A DNA stretch of 5,643 nt, from contig SPLB01000189.1 in the NCBI GenBank assembly GCA_004566265.1, positions 1 to 5,643 of the forward strand, read 5' to 3'. The notes under the pieces are model-generated. The model ran no database searches, had not been told where the DNA came from, and worked only from the letters and a program-made list of their open reading frames with translations. Source of the DNA: Paracoccaceae bacterium (GTDB taxonomy: Bacteria > Pseudomonadota > Alphaproteobacteria > Rhodobacterales > Rhodobacteraceae). Below are positions 1 to 3,662 of this stretch, in pieces. A program made the position numbers and the translations under genes. The first letter of the stretch is position 1, and each line of letters opens with the position of its first letter.

Positions 1-47
1 GCCTGAAGCGCGCCCATCAGCGAGTCGACTGTCCAAGTCTGTGTCAT
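1..47 (-). CDS. Partial N-terminus, possibly DUF2170 (YjfI-like)
   Basis: Only the first 15 complete codons are inside the window, running off the left edge; they read MTQTWTVDSLMGALQ. The ATG is at 47-45 and is preceded on the minus strand by AAGAGGA, a good Shine-Dalgarno sequence about five bases upstream. The short W-T-V-x-S-L-x-x-A-L pattern resembles the beginning of DUF2170/YjfI proteins as I remember them, and a DUF2170 gene is expected next to DUF2491, DUF350 and DUF1190 genes by analogy with E. coli yjfIJKLMC. The CDS call rests on the start codon plus ribosome binding site. The family call rests mainly on context and is tentative, since 15 residues cannot prove homology. It is transcribed divergently from the channel operon; a PspA-type gene (yjfJ) might follow it beyond the window. 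Confidence 0.5.
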   Translation of the reverse strand, partial: MTQTWTVDSLMGALQ

Positions 48-139
48 GTTATCCTCTTGTTTTCATAAAAGTGGGCCCGAACGGCAGGCTCAAATGCACA
101 TGGCGATATGGCAAAACAGCTAACCACACAGCGCGTCTA

Positions 140-154
140 CTTCAAGTGTTGAAG
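140..154. promoter_or_regulatory. Perfect 15-bp inverted repeat in the divergent spacer (operator-like)
   Basis: The sequence CTTCAA-GTG-TTGAAG is a perfect inverted repeat with 6-base arms and a 3-base centre. It lies 13 bp upstream of the predicted GTG start of the potassium channel gene, in the spacer between that gene and the divergent minus-strand gene. It could be an operator for a dimeric regulator or an RNA hairpin close to the weak ribosome binding site of the channel. The symmetry is seen directly; any regulatory role is inference. No convincing -35/-10 pair was identified around it. Confidence 0.35.
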
Positions 155-167
155 CGGCAATCCCCTT

Positions 168-1277
168 GTGGCAAGCTCGCTTATAGTCAGCCTTCTCCTG
201 GGCTGTTGGATTACTTGGAAGTGCATTTTGCCAGTCTTGTCTAGGCTATTTTTCAAACTCTACCACGAGCTTCTGGAGCTAAGCGTTTGGATATTGCTGC
301 TCCTGTGTTTTGCCTTTTTTGCCCTCTCTTGGTCGTTCTTCTGGCTGGCTGGAGAAACAGATCTGACCGCCAATGTCGTGACCTTTGTCTATTTCGCGGC
401 GACCACGGCGTCGACGGTGGGGTATGGTGATTTCTCGCCGCAGACAAATGCAGGCAAACTGGTTGCGGCTTTCTGGTTCTTTCCGGGGGCCTTGTTGATT
501 TTCTCGGCGGCGCTTGGGCGACTGGCTGGGTCGATGGTCGAAAGGATTAGGCGCATGGCCGACGGGCATGGCAACTATGAACGGATGAATGGTGCGACTG
601 TCATTGTCGGCTATCATCGTGAACAAACACCGCTGATGGTCGAGAACCTCGTGGCTGGCGACGATGGGGATGACAAAATCGTGCTGCTCACCACGGTTAC
701 AGATGCGGATGTGCCGGAAGGGGTTTATCTGGTGAAATCAGACCGGCTGGATGCGCTTGCACCGCTCAAACGCGCCGGGATCCCAAAGGCGCAGAAGGCG
801 CTTGTTTGCGCTGGCAGCGACGCGGAGACGTTTAACACCTGCCTTGCCATTCGCGAGCTGAATGAAACCGTCCATGTGGCGGCGTTTTTTGAAGACCGCG
901 ACACGGCACACCGTGCATCGCGGATTGCGGGTGTGGAAACCGTGGTTGCAAATACCAGCGAAGCCTTGGTGCGTGCGGCACAGGATCCCGGGTCCGGTCA
1001 AATCCTTATGGCCCTGTCCGCCGCCAATGTTGGGGCGACTATCTATTCAGCGCAAACGCAAAACCCGCTGGAGGTTGCGACCTTGCAGCAGGCGCTGACA
1101 GCTTTGAATGCAACCCTTATTGCGGTCTCGCAGCCGGATGAAAGCGACTATTCATTCTGCCCCTATCCCGCGTTACTCCGGGCGAATGGCGCGTTTTACT
1201 ACCTGTCCAAAGCTCGGTTGACGTCCAAGGCGATACACGCAGCTGCAGGAGGCGGAGATGTTTCGATCGTGGTTTAA
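168..1277 (+). CDS. Two-TM potassium channel with RCK/TrkA-N-like domain
   Basis: Encodes a 369-residue inner-membrane K+ channel subunit of the Kch/MthK type. A first transmembrane helix covers about residues 38-61. A pore helix follows, then the selectivity filter TVGYG at 83-87 within TTASTVGYGDFSP, which is diagnostic for K+ channels. The second transmembrane helix is at about 96-118. A cytosolic domain from about 142 has the alternating beta/alpha look of RCK/TrkA-N, with an additional C-terminal segment from about 280. The first strand reads ATVIVGYHREQTP, so the usual GxGxxG nucleotide-binding turn is not conserved; ligand binding may be altered or lost. The start is the GTG at 168: an in-frame TGA lies at 150-152 and the upstream site (GAAGCGG) is weak, so a slightly later start is possible. 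The 3' end overlaps the next gene by 20 bases. Channels of this type accompany DUF2491/DUF350/DUF1190 genes in other proteobacteria, as I recall. Likely tetrameric. Confidence 0.9.
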   Translation: MASSLIVSLLLGCWITWKCILPVLSRLFFKLYHELLELSVWILLLLCFAFFALSWSFFWLAGETDLTANVVTFVYFAATTASTVGYGDFSPQTNAGKLVAAFWFFPGALLIFSAALGRLAGSMVERIRRMADGHGNYERMNGATVIVGYHREQTPLMVENLVAGDDGDDKIVLLTTVTDADVPEGVYLVKSDRLDALAPLKRAGIPKAQKALVCAGSDAETFNTCLAIRELNETVHVAAFFEDRDTAHRASRIAGVETVVANTSEALVRAAQDPGSGQILMALSAANVGATIYSAQTQNPLEVATLQQALTALNATLIAVSQPDESDYSFCPYPALLRANGAFYYLSKARLTSKAIHAAAGGGDVSIVV

Positions 1278-1902
1278 ACGCCCCCAAACCCCCGCCACCC
1301 CTGAGGTTCTGGGTCTGACGATCGGCCGGGCGATCCGGTTGGACACAATGGAGTTTCGCCTGTTGCCACATGACAGTCTGTTTGTCGGCCCGGAAACGGA
1401 TATGATGGTGACCGCACAAGGGGCTTGCGATCTGGGCGAGCAGTCGTTTCTGCACCGATTTTACCCCGATGACGACCGGTTTCTTCTGCAGGTGCAAGGC
1501 GGCGACGGTCATGAAGACCCCCGCGTGGACGAGCTGATGTTGTGGTTTTTCCATGACGTCCAATACCCTGCAGGCGAAACCGCTTGGAAAGATCATCTCA
1601 CCCGCCTGCGACAACCCCGGTTTGCGTTGCACACAGAGACCGGCACTGTTGAATTTGAGCGCGCGTGGTTCAATGACAGCCCTATCGCCCAAGATCCCGT
1701 GACCTATTGGGAAGAGGTTCGCGACTCCCGAGAACAGTCAGAGCCAACTCGCATTTTCCAATCCGCCATGCTGTTTGCGCGCACCGCAACGGATGGACGC
1801 GACGATATGCTGTTGGTCAATATGGAAGAGCCCGAACACGGTGAGCGTGCCGTGTCCTTCATGATTGGCCGCAGCCTGCCGCAGCACAGCCTGATCACCT
1901 GA
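1258..1902 (+). CDS. yjfK: DUF2491 family protein, YjfK-like
   Basis: Encodes 214 residues with no signal peptide or membrane helix, so probably cytosolic. It resembles E. coli YjfK along its length: a short basic N-terminus (MFRSWFKRP), a G-R-x-I-x-L-D segment near 23-29, the block CDLGEQSFLHRFYPDDD at 57-73, and a C-terminal part with FERAWFNDSPIAQDPVTYWEEV (about 133-154) followed by FQSAMLFAR and DMLLVNMEE, typical of the family. Length is near that of YjfK (about 219 residues, from memory). ATG 1258 is preceded by AGGAGG at 1247-1252. The gene starts inside the 3' end of the channel gene, which suggests translational coupling and a stoichiometric relationship. The molecular function of DUF2491 is unknown; the constant association with DUF350, DUF1190 and a channel suggests a soluble partner of a membrane assembly (inference). 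Confidence 0.85.
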   Translation: MFRSWFKRPQTPATPEVLGLTIGRAIRLDTMEFRLLPHDSLFVGPETDMMVTAQGACDLGEQSFLHRFYPDDDRFLLQVQGGDGHEDPRVDELMLWFFHDVQYPAGETAWKDHLTRLRQPRFALHTETGTVEFERAWFNDSPIAQDPVTYWEEVRDSREQSEPTRIFQSAMLFARTATDGRDDMLLVNMEEPEHGERAVSFMIGRSLPQHSLIT

Positions 1903-1940
1903 CACTCTACTTGCAAGGCCCAAAGGAGCTTTGATTTGCA

Positions 1941-2351
1941 ATGACCGACCTTCTTTATTCTCTTTCTGGTGTGGTGCCGTTCCTGATCTACTTCGGAACA
2001 AGCATTGCAATGCTGCTGATATTCATGTGGCTCTACATGCGAATGACACCTGTTGATGAGGTGGCGCAGATCCGTGAAAACAATGTCGCGGCCTCGCTGG
2101 TGTTCAGCGCCGCGTTTGTTGGTTTTGCCTTGCCCCTGGCCAGCGCTGCGGCAAATTCGGTCGGATTTGTCGATTTTCTGCTTTGGGGTGCCATAGCCGG
2201 GATCGCACAATTGCTGGTGTACCAGATTTTCCGTCGGTTCTATCCGCTGGTTGCGGAACGCATTTCGCGGGGCGAAATGGCCGTCAGCACCAAACTGGCT
2301 GGATTGTCAATCACGGTCGGGCTGCTGAACGCCGCCTGCATGACCTATTGA
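1941..2351 (+). CDS. yjfL: DUF350 family inner-membrane protein, YjfL-like
   Basis: Encodes a 136-residue hydrophobic protein with four predicted transmembrane helices, at about residues 10-33, 49-71, 77-97 and 114-134. That is the arrangement of DUF350/YjfL, a family built from two repeats of two helices. The family-like N-N-x-A-A-S-L-x-F-x-A-x-F-x-G-F-A-L-P-L stretch starts at 47, and R-G-E at 110-112 precedes the last helix. ATG 1941 is used; the ribosome binding site AAGGAG (1923-1928) is 12 bases upstream, longer than usual, but no in-frame start fits better. The gene follows yjfK after 38 bp and precedes the DUF1190 gene by 10 bp. The function of DUF350 is unknown; recurrent linkage to ATP-grasp enzymes and PspA-type proteins is known from comparative genomics. 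A role as a small membrane scaffold or accessory is inference. Confidence 0.85.
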   Translation: MTDLLYSLSGVVPFLIYFGTSIAMLLIFMWLYMRMTPVDEVAQIRENNVAASLVFSAAFVGFALPLASAAANSVGFVDFLLWGAIAGIAQLLVYQIFRRFYPLVAERISRGEMAVSTKLAGLSITVGLLNAACMTY

Positions 2352-2361
2352 GGAGGCGGAT

Positions 2362-2910
2362 ATGAAACGTTCAAGATCGGTCACTCTGGTCGCCATGGCA
2401 GGAGCGGCGGTTAGCCTCAGCGCCTGCGATCCAGCTCCGGACAGCGAAGGGTCGGTTTACGCGTCAGAGGCGCAGTGTATTCAGGAAGATTTTGTGCCTG
2501 ATGCGGATTGTGCCGCCCTGTTTTCCAAGGGCGAAGAAATTCACGAAAGCACTGCCCCCCGGTATGCCACACGAAGCCTATGCGAAGATCAACATGGTTT
2601 TGGGCAATGCGAAAGCGGCCTCTCCTATGCCTCACCGCGTCCTTACGGCTACTTGATTGCAGGATCACTGGCGACCCTGGCGCTGAGCGACGCGGTGCGC
2701 CCTATCTATCCTGATCGAAAGCGTCGCGGTTACTATATGACCGGTGGCAGTTATATTCACTTTTCTTCCGGGAGAACCGTGAAATACAGATCGTCGGAGC
2801 TCAAGAAATTTAATGTGAATGCGCCCCGTGCTGTGCCCAAAATTCAGACCCGTACCACAGTGGTGTCCCGAAACGGTTTTGGCAGCAGATCTGGTTCATT
2901 CGGGAGCTGA
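2362..2910 (+). CDS. yjfM: DUF1190 (YgiB/YjfM-type) predicted lipoprotein
   Basis: Encodes 182 residues. The N-terminus is a lipoprotein signal: basic MKRSR, a hydrophobic stretch, then lipobox L-S-A-C with the acylated cysteine at 22. The +2 residue is Asp, which in E. coli keeps lipoproteins in the inner membrane; whether this rule holds here is uncertain. The mature domain carries Cys39, Cys50, Cys74 and Cys83 spaced as in DUF1190 (Y-x-S-x-x-x-C, C near a helix, AP-x-Y at 65-68, C-x-x-x-x-G-x-x-x-C), which could form two disulfides in the periplasm. The C-terminal part ends in Arg/Gly/Ser-rich TVVSRNGFGSRSGSFGS, also typical of YgiB. ATG 2362 follows AGGAGG at 2351-2356, which overlaps the yjfL stop codon. 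It is the last gene of the operon. The symbol follows the yjfKLM context; the E. coli paralogue YgiB is equally close in kind. Function unknown. Confidence 0.87.
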   Translation: MKRSRSVTLVAMAGAAVSLSACDPAPDSEGSVYASEAQCIQEDFVPDADCAALFSKGEEIHESTAPRYATRSLCEDQHGFGQCESGLSYASPRPYGYLIAGSLATLALSDAVRPIYPDRKRRGYYMTGGSYIHFSSGRTVKYRSSELKKFNVNAPRAVPKIQTRTTVVSRNGFGSRSGSFGS

Positions 2911-3662
2911 GTGACGTCGTGTTCCCCATATCGGCTGTGGACCAGCTCCGCGCTCAACACTGCATATGCAAGATGTGACGTCAGTTTCTCAAAAGCCGCT
3001 ATGGCATGTCTGTAAACCGCGAAGAACAGCTTGGAGATTACAGAAATCAAAGATGCCGAAGCGGCGAACGCGCTGACACTCCGCTTTCCCGACATTGGTC
3101 TGATCACCGCGCCAAACCTGCTGTATACCAGCGCGCCTGTTTTCCCATTGAAAAACGCCGCGAATTGGATCGTTATGAGTTAAGACGTTCCCCGCACGAG
3201 AGGCCTCAAGATGAGCGGAGCGGGGCACGAGCCGCCAGCCAGCCGTGGTGCCTCTTACACTGCCATCTTGTGATTGAATTTCTTAAATGATGTTGTCTTG
3301 AGCAGTCCCGACGCCGAAACCGCCATCGCAGTAGGTGGCGGCGCTCACTTGAAATCCAGAGGTCAGGACCTTCTTGGGTTGCCATCTATCGCTTTCAGCA
3401 AACGAGTTAGCGCGTTCTTCTTTGTGTGCGCGCAACCGTCGTTCGGGGATGTTGGACGACATGCGTGACGTGAACCGTTGGCCTCAGCCAGCGCGGGCAC
3501 TTGATGATGGCCTTCCTCAGCTTGCTAAGCTTGGGGGTTCAAAATCAGATAGACCCCGTCACAAACTTTGATCAATCTCGGCGCAAAATTTTTGTGATAA
3601 CGAACAAAACACGATGTCCTCTGCTATTTAGGTGCTGTAACGGTAGGTCGGAGGTATCCCCA
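2911..3662. other. Gene-poor spacer with possible decayed coding fragments, ending in the rarD leader
   Basis: About 750 bases with no convincing intact gene. The E. coli yjf order would place a YjfC/GSP-synthetase-like gene here, but no ATP-grasp motifs are visible in any frame. Three short open stretches look somewhat coding. One is on the plus strand at 3016-3183, reading NALTLRFPDIGLITAPNLL and related sequence. One is on the minus strand at 3107-2844, which overlaps the first and also the 3' end of the lipoprotein gene. One is on the minus strand at 3462-3283 (59 codons). None has a strong ribosome binding site and none was recognised. An 8-base repeat GTGACGTC occurs at 2911-2918 and 2975-2982. 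No transposase motif, IS ends, tRNA or T-tract terminator was found. The last ~100 bases are AT-richer and contain the palindrome TTGATCAA at 3568-3575, probably part of the rarD upstream region. Confidence 0.5.
3650..3654 (+). promoter_or_regulatory. Ribosome binding site that fixes the rarD start
   Basis: GGAGG stands 8 bases before ATG 3663. The reading frame is open back to 3501, but the extra 54 residues there are unlike RarD and lack a comparable site, so this Shine-Dalgarno sequence decides for the shorter, family-length protein. Confidence 0.8.

Follow-up and report, generated by a model that had tools for sequence, protein, structure and literature searches.

A divergent PspA/YjfC-type gene module at the end of a Paracoccaceae contig, with the C-terminus of its DUF1190 lipoprotein as a candidate ligase substrate

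The stretch of DNA analysed here, called the window, is the whole of contig SPLB01000189.1 (5643 bases) from the assembly of a Paracoccaceae bacterium (GCA_004566265.1), and carries genes for a potassium channel and for proteins of the families DUF2491 (YjfK), DUF350 (YjfL) and DUF1190 (YgiB/YjfM). In this study, we propose, with a probability of roughly 0.6, that these genes are one arm of a divergent seven-gene module of the PspA/YjfC type, and that the ATP-grasp ligase of the module, seen in relatives of the window, couples the C-terminal Gly or Ser of the DUF1190 lipoprotein to spermidine or another polyamine. What was observed is which genes are present, their arrangement in two arms in complete relatives, and the fact that a G[FYL]G box and a small-residue C-terminus go together with the ligase. 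The gene set has been published, but what chemistry it carries out is not understood; no natural partner of YgiC and YjfC, the ligases of E. coli, is named in the literature searched.

Complete module in related genomes

The module was found complete in a genome of the same genus (G014), where one arm consists of DUF2170, PspA and ligase genes and the other of channel, DUF2491, DUF350 and DUF1190 genes. A stretch of 10,634 bases from Epibacterium ulvae U95, identical to part of the G014 stretch, likewise holds every gene of the module, and there PspA (YjfJ) and the YjfC-type ATP-grasp ligase lie on the arm opposite the channel. Over positions 1-2913 the window is 85.9% identical in DNA to E. 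ulvae, with the aligned part running 3 bases past the DUF1190 stop codon. The 15 DUF2170 codons of the window (MTQTWTVDSLMGALQ) encode the same N-terminal residues as the E. ulvae protein recognised by the DUF2170 profile, which establishes as real the divergent gene that the original prediction had given as possible; only 15 codons are present because the contig end cuts the gene. All seven genes, in the divergent layout, were present in each of the seven named loci found by means of the window's DUF350 protein (E. ulvae and six of Roseibium/Labrenzia).

The neighbourhood survey suggested with the original prediction was run on 398 Pseudomonadota genomes. DUF1190 was found in 63 of them, with 68 matches including that of the window; the DNA around the other 67 was fetched and annotated using profiles made from loci including those of the window, E. 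ulvae and E. coli. DUF2491 was present in 24 of these loci, and all 24 also carried DUF350, DUF1190, the ATP-grasp ligase, PspA and DUF2170, while 19 carried the channel. A divergent layout like that of the window was seen in nine of the 24, from three families. A chance neighbourhood is ruled out by this co-occurrence (24/24), by the 20 of 31 strong members of the channel subfamily that sit in the module, and by the seven complete relatives (7/7); the association of the channel with these genes, as originally predicted, is thus not an accident of one genome. The presence of PspA and of a YjfC-type ligase in the complete relatives supports the predicted pointers to membrane stress and to polyamine or peptide conjugation.

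The distribution of DUF2491 is patchy (3/101 relatives; 12/385 genomes of the class, with weaker matches there lying within longer open reading frames, ORFs), and the ligase family PF03738 occurs in 90 of the 398 genomes. In five loci of other alphaproteobacteria (L118-L122), a DUF2491-like stretch lies inside ORFs of about 350-790 amino acids; in three of the five a DUF350 gene follows it, and neither DUF1190 nor the ligase was matched in the fetched stretch. Two module loci, L229 (among the seven named ones) and L086 (G708), have a channel frame that is split or broken by stop codons. At L007 (14335-16837, G086), the ligase is adjoined by an Orn/Arg-type pyridoxal decarboxylase (PF02784/PF00278) and a DUF3326 protein, a neighbourhood that is a possible link to polyamine synthesis.

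DUF1190 tail and the YjfC-type ligase

In the alignment of DUF1190 proteins, the lipobox cysteine is nearly invariant and four further cysteines are invariant; beyond them, and separated from their domain by a weakly hydrophobic segment, comes a basic tail that bears an RGGFG-like box and mostly ends in Gly-Gly. The window protein has the lipobox cysteine and the four further cysteines, and matches the Pfam profile above its cut-off. Its Cys-rich domain has a net charge of -10 and its tail one of +13; in the survey proteins the medians were -7 and +8, and the tail was the more positive in 64 of 67. These charges agree with a domain outside and a tail inside the cell.

The ligase was present in the fetched stretch for 61 of the 67 survey proteins. 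All 61 have a G[FYL]G box within the last 60 residues, and their ends are Gly-Gly in 50, Gly-Ser in five, Ser-Ser in four, Gly-Thr in one and Ala-Thr in one, so that the final residue is Gly or Ser in 59; these tail counts ignore kinship. Proteins ending in Gly-Gly were found in 15 of 16 families. The distance from the box to the end varies, being 8 to 26 residues in most tails. Of the remaining long ORFs in these loci, a set of 1454 that includes spurious frames, 15 end in Gly-Gly. The six DUF1190 matches without a ligase have neither a box nor a Gly-Gly end (Fisher test for Gly-Gly 1.2e-4, ignoring kinship). In a large protein collection, 94 of the 120 homologues listed out of 158 found bear the box (82 ending in Gly-Gly, eight in Gly-Ser and four otherwise); many of those listed are enterobacterial, and some are cut or frame-shifted.

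The association was also examined from the side of the ligase. An extra set comprised 20 of about 25 loci with a YjfC-type ligase that lack a Pfam DUF1190 match; the controls were 13 loci whose ligases score lower (in 12, an ORF of 620-646 amino acids, the length of bifunctional enzymes) and 17 other loci. Exactly one ORF bore a strict tail pattern in each of 57 of the 65 ligase loci and in each of 12 of the 20 extra loci; no ORF did so in the 13 lower-scoring-ligase loci or the 17 others. On the ligase strand and within 1.5 kb, it was found in 49/65 and 11/20, the misses including divergent loci. A relaxed pattern raised the extra set to 16 of 20. Short proteins of roughly 95-200 amino acids beside the ligase bear the same tail at L195-L213 and may deserve a family of their own. 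When six short ligase neighbours were scanned with Pfam, none passed the DUF1190 cut-off and three matched below it; on these below-threshold matches, some short tail proteins are classed as remote DUF1190 proteins.

The E. ulvae ligase matches, over its full length, the structures of E. coli YgiC (7uk8, 2.8e-128) and YjfC (7uk6, 7.2e-125), both named peptide--spermidine ligase in RefSeq; this name reportedly rests on work by Pederick from 2023. Since the box, the mostly Gly-Gly end and the strict pattern accompany the YjfC-type ligase, the ligase likely caps the tail, and the simplest reading of the tail data would be that the DUF1190 C-terminus is its natural peptide. In the 16 families sampled, tail and ligase go together, and the tail is retained even in proteins whose remainder is barely or not recognised as the lipoprotein, making it a candidate partner. 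As to which proteins of the module interact, the comparative evidence points to the DUF1190 tail and the ligase, rather than to the pairs named in the original prediction (the channel RCK domain with DUF2491, or DUF350 with DUF1190).

Features of the window and its channel

The features of the window are listed in Table 1. The ORF list confirmed the predicted tight packing of the four forward genes, the channel and DUF2491 genes overlapping by 20 bases and the following gaps being 38 and 10 bases. The predicted family assignments also hold, as the channel, DUF2491, DUF350 and DUF1190 matches are all above the curated Pfam cut-offs; for the channel, Ion_trans_2 gave 9.2e-13 and TrkA_N gave 3.8e-05, barely above its cut-off (24.4 versus 23.8 bits). 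The channel probably starts at TTG 228, because the E. ulvae orthologue uses TTG at the equivalent position. AlphaFold2 models had a mean predicted local distance difference test score of 91.4 for DUF2491, which consists mainly of beta strands, and of 93.6 for DUF350; DUF350 is predicted to be the membrane partner and DUF2491 the soluble partner.

Table 1. Positions of genes and protein motifs in the window
Feature	Positions	Strand	Basis or remark
DUF2170 (YjfI, CesT/Tir-like) gene, 5' part	1..47	-	15 codons, translation MTQTWTVDSLMGALQ
Channel gene, MthK-like two-transmembrane (2TM)-RCK	228..1277	+	Pfam PF07885, PF02254; frame open from GTG 168
Channel selectivity filter TVGYGD	414..431	+	Sequence, channel alignment
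DUF2491 (YjfK) gene	1258..1902	+	PF10679, 1.2e-46
DUF350 (YjfL) gene	1941..2351	+	PF03994, 1.7e-36; four long helices predicted
DUF1190 (YgiB/YjfM) lipoprotein gene	2362..2910	+	PF06693, 1.7e-22
DUF1190 lipobox-like LSAC	2416..2427	+	Sequence; Cys column nearly invariant in DUF1190 alignment
DUF1190 weakly hydrophobic segment	2647..2697	+	Between acidic Cys-rich domain and basic tail
DUF1190 tail box RNGFG (family consensus RGGFG)	2869..2883	+	Columns G172 and G174 invariant in alignment
DUF1190 C-terminal Gly-Ser, proposed attachment end	2902..2907	+	Gly-Gly in most relatives

The remaining recognised genes of the contig encode an EamA transporter of the RarD type and a pseudouridine synthase of the RluA type. 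No gene was recognised in the roughly 750 bases (2914-3660) that separate the module from rarD; at the same module edge, E. ulvae has a flank with transposase-type ORFs. A gene remnant in 2911-3660 was considered and rejected, as none of the three ORFs of this region matched Pfam at E values up to 1, in a search that covered Pfam only and did not compare the DNA with other collections.

A profile of 17 module channels matches MthK along almost the entire chain (8.6e-32, profile positions 14-333), and 14 of the 17 have the filter TVGYGD. At the MthK calcium residues, which we take to be D184, E210 and E212, the window channel has Cys, Phe and Glu, and these residues rule out MthK-like calcium gating for it. 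Among the 17 module channels, D184 is retained in six, E210 in none and E212 (as Glu) in six. As the calcium residues are mostly not kept, the module channels are likely to respond to a ligand other than calcium bound as in MthK.

When up to five candidate channels per genome were scored across the 398 genomes, 31 subfamily matches of at least 360 bits were obtained, the next-best score being 78.4 bits. Around the 11 that lie outside the module, the surrounding stretch viewed contained no further module gene. Two genomes of one genus, G728 and G484, have channel-less modules; G728 holds an intact subfamily channel (C22, L163) away from its module, and in G484 a short channel match (C1:2413460-2413708) carries a stop codon. 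An orphan channel copy is found in nine genomes of one genus (L153-L161), and in seven of the nine its neighbours are presumably nadA and a Pal-type lipoprotein gene.

Alternatives, proposed mechanism and known systems

Several observations weigh against the proposed capping of the DUF1190 tail within a single working module. Neither the ligase nor the PspA gene turned up elsewhere in the window's assembly, which is 67.8% complete. The DUF1190 proteins of the window and of E. ulvae U95 both end in Gly-Ser; a second entry named E. ulvae (P0054), 83% identical to the window protein, ends in Gly-Gly. The tail pattern was set after the first tails and the printout of the second set had been viewed, so that the counts made with it are not blind, and its relaxed form also occurred in 1/13 and 4/17 control loci, in ORFs unlike the DUF1190 family. 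No recognisable tail gene was found in four of the 20 extra ligase loci, and one lower-scoring ligase (G404:C160, L085) is adjoined by a DUF1190 tail gene. The contrast with the six ligase-less DUF1190 matches is soft because these are mostly weak or partial and four of them lie in two genomes with a ligase elsewhere. The tail may instead be periplasmic, because DUF1190 is a lipoprotein with only a weak second hydrophobic segment. Vesicles of a tolA mutant are reported to contain E. coli YgiB, and YgiC is listed as cytoplasmic; given the vesicle report and the weak membrane segment, the charges do not settle the topology. The channel is absent from five of the 24 survey modules and from E. coli yjf, and 11 of the 31 strong subfamily channels are outside the module, nine of these in one genus. 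A study of E. coli strains adapted by evolution to growth at up to 45 C (PMC12492005) names, in its available part, yjfIJKL as up-regulated, which its authors ascribe to a promoter deletion; yjfM and yjfC are outside this set.

The product of the ligase could be a soluble peptide- or metabolite-polyamine conjugate, with the DUF1190 tail serving, for example, in docking to DUF2491, DUF350 or the membrane. The related enzyme GspSA acts on glutathione, which favours such a product, as do the descriptions of YgiC and YjfC, in the parts of the literature available, merely as peptide-spermidine or peptidylpolyamine ligases, and the small-molecule amides that fungal structural homologues are described as forming in the E-64 pathway (PMC12568646, in its available part). 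However, the tail accompanies the ligase even without a Pfam DUF1190 match (12/20 strict, 16/20 relaxed), is absent from the six ligase-less DUF1190 matches, and in its strict form is absent from all 13 loci of lower-scoring, mostly bifunctional-type ligases; we consider a soluble conjugate unlikely. It is more improbable still that the tail is simply a Gly/Ser-rich low-complexity segment of the envelope whose Gly-Gly end reflects composition. The tails are indeed rich in Gly and Ser, and some end in SSS or STAS; yet 59/61 have Gly or Ser as their final residue and 61/61 have the box, despite a variable distance between the two, and Gly-Gly ends are rare among the other long ORFs (15/1454).

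The channel, for its part, could be a passenger, carried in the operon and working independently in ion homeostasis, and this we hold to be a serious contender, at somewhat less than even odds. Its absence from E. coli yjf and from five modules, the 11 subfamily members outside the module, and the intact channel of G728 away from a channel-less module are all in favour. Against this stands the sharp boundary of the subfamily, which, together with the 20 of its 31 members that sit in the module, argues for a working link between channel and module.

Under the proposed capping, the ligase would recognise the DUF1190 tail through the RGGFG-like box. DUF1190 would be lipid-anchored, with a disulfide-type domain outside and the basic tail probably inside, and the capped tail would then be a membrane-tethered polycation. 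The module would serve a PspA-type membrane repair response; a role in stress is supported by the up-regulation of yjfIJKL in the heat-evolved strains and by the PspA partner. The MthK-like channel would release K+ or set the membrane potential, gated by a cytoplasmic ligand and not by calcium in the manner of MthK. That the capped cationic tail is itself a tethered plug or ligand of the channel, uniting polyamine charge state, K+ flux and PspA-type repair in one switch, is a highly speculative extension, and very probably wrong. Should the capping prove true, a membrane lipoprotein of bacteria would be modified at its C-terminus with a polyamine, and the cluster involved is one linked to PspA and, in many cases, to a K+ channel. 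The literature searched, with most subscription papers lying outside it, does not name DUF1190, YgiB or YjfM as a ligase substrate; the Pederick 2023 paper may do so.

The gene combination, presented in the original prediction as a poorly understood module, is already known from Ravi et al. 2024 (PMC11237479), and the window is a further member with a divergent layout. The third group of CesT/Tir-PspA operons in the available part of that paper, for which a membrane-stress role is predicted, shares with the module the K+ channel, DUF350, DUF1190, DUF2491, the ATP-grasp ligase and the DUF2170-PspA pair. The window itself has the third-group K+ channel with an intracellular ligand domain, DUF350, DUF1190 and DUF2491. 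The CesT/Tir (DUF2170)-PspA pair is represented in the window by the 15 DUF2170 codons, and both of its genes are present in E. ulvae. The window differs in its two-arm divergent layout, and its ligase and PspA genes would lie beyond the contig end. Ravi et al. (PMC11237479) regard DUF1190 as a metal-chelating lipoprotein, and the operon section of their paper does not mention the tail as a ligase substrate; chelation would be compatible with the four conserved cysteines.

E. coli yjfIJKLMC shares DUF2170, PspA, DUF2491, DUF350, DUF1190 and the ligase with the module, but lies on a single strand and lacks the channel, and YjfM ends in Gly-Gly whereas the window protein ends in Gly-Ser. E. coli ygiBC has DUF1190, with a tail ending in Gly-Gly, and the ligase, but consists of these two genes only. 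The window channel shares with MthK the 2TM-RCK layout and the TVGYGD filter, and differs in having C, F and E at the calcium residues. In the eukaryotic conjugation of spermidine to SUMO and ubiquitin, as described in the available part of the report (PMC12270671), a polyamine is placed on a protein's C-terminal Gly-Gly, as proposed here for DUF1190; that system uses E1/E2 enzymes and folded modifiers, whereas the DUF1190 case would involve one ATP-grasp ligase and a tail, with a product that is predicted.

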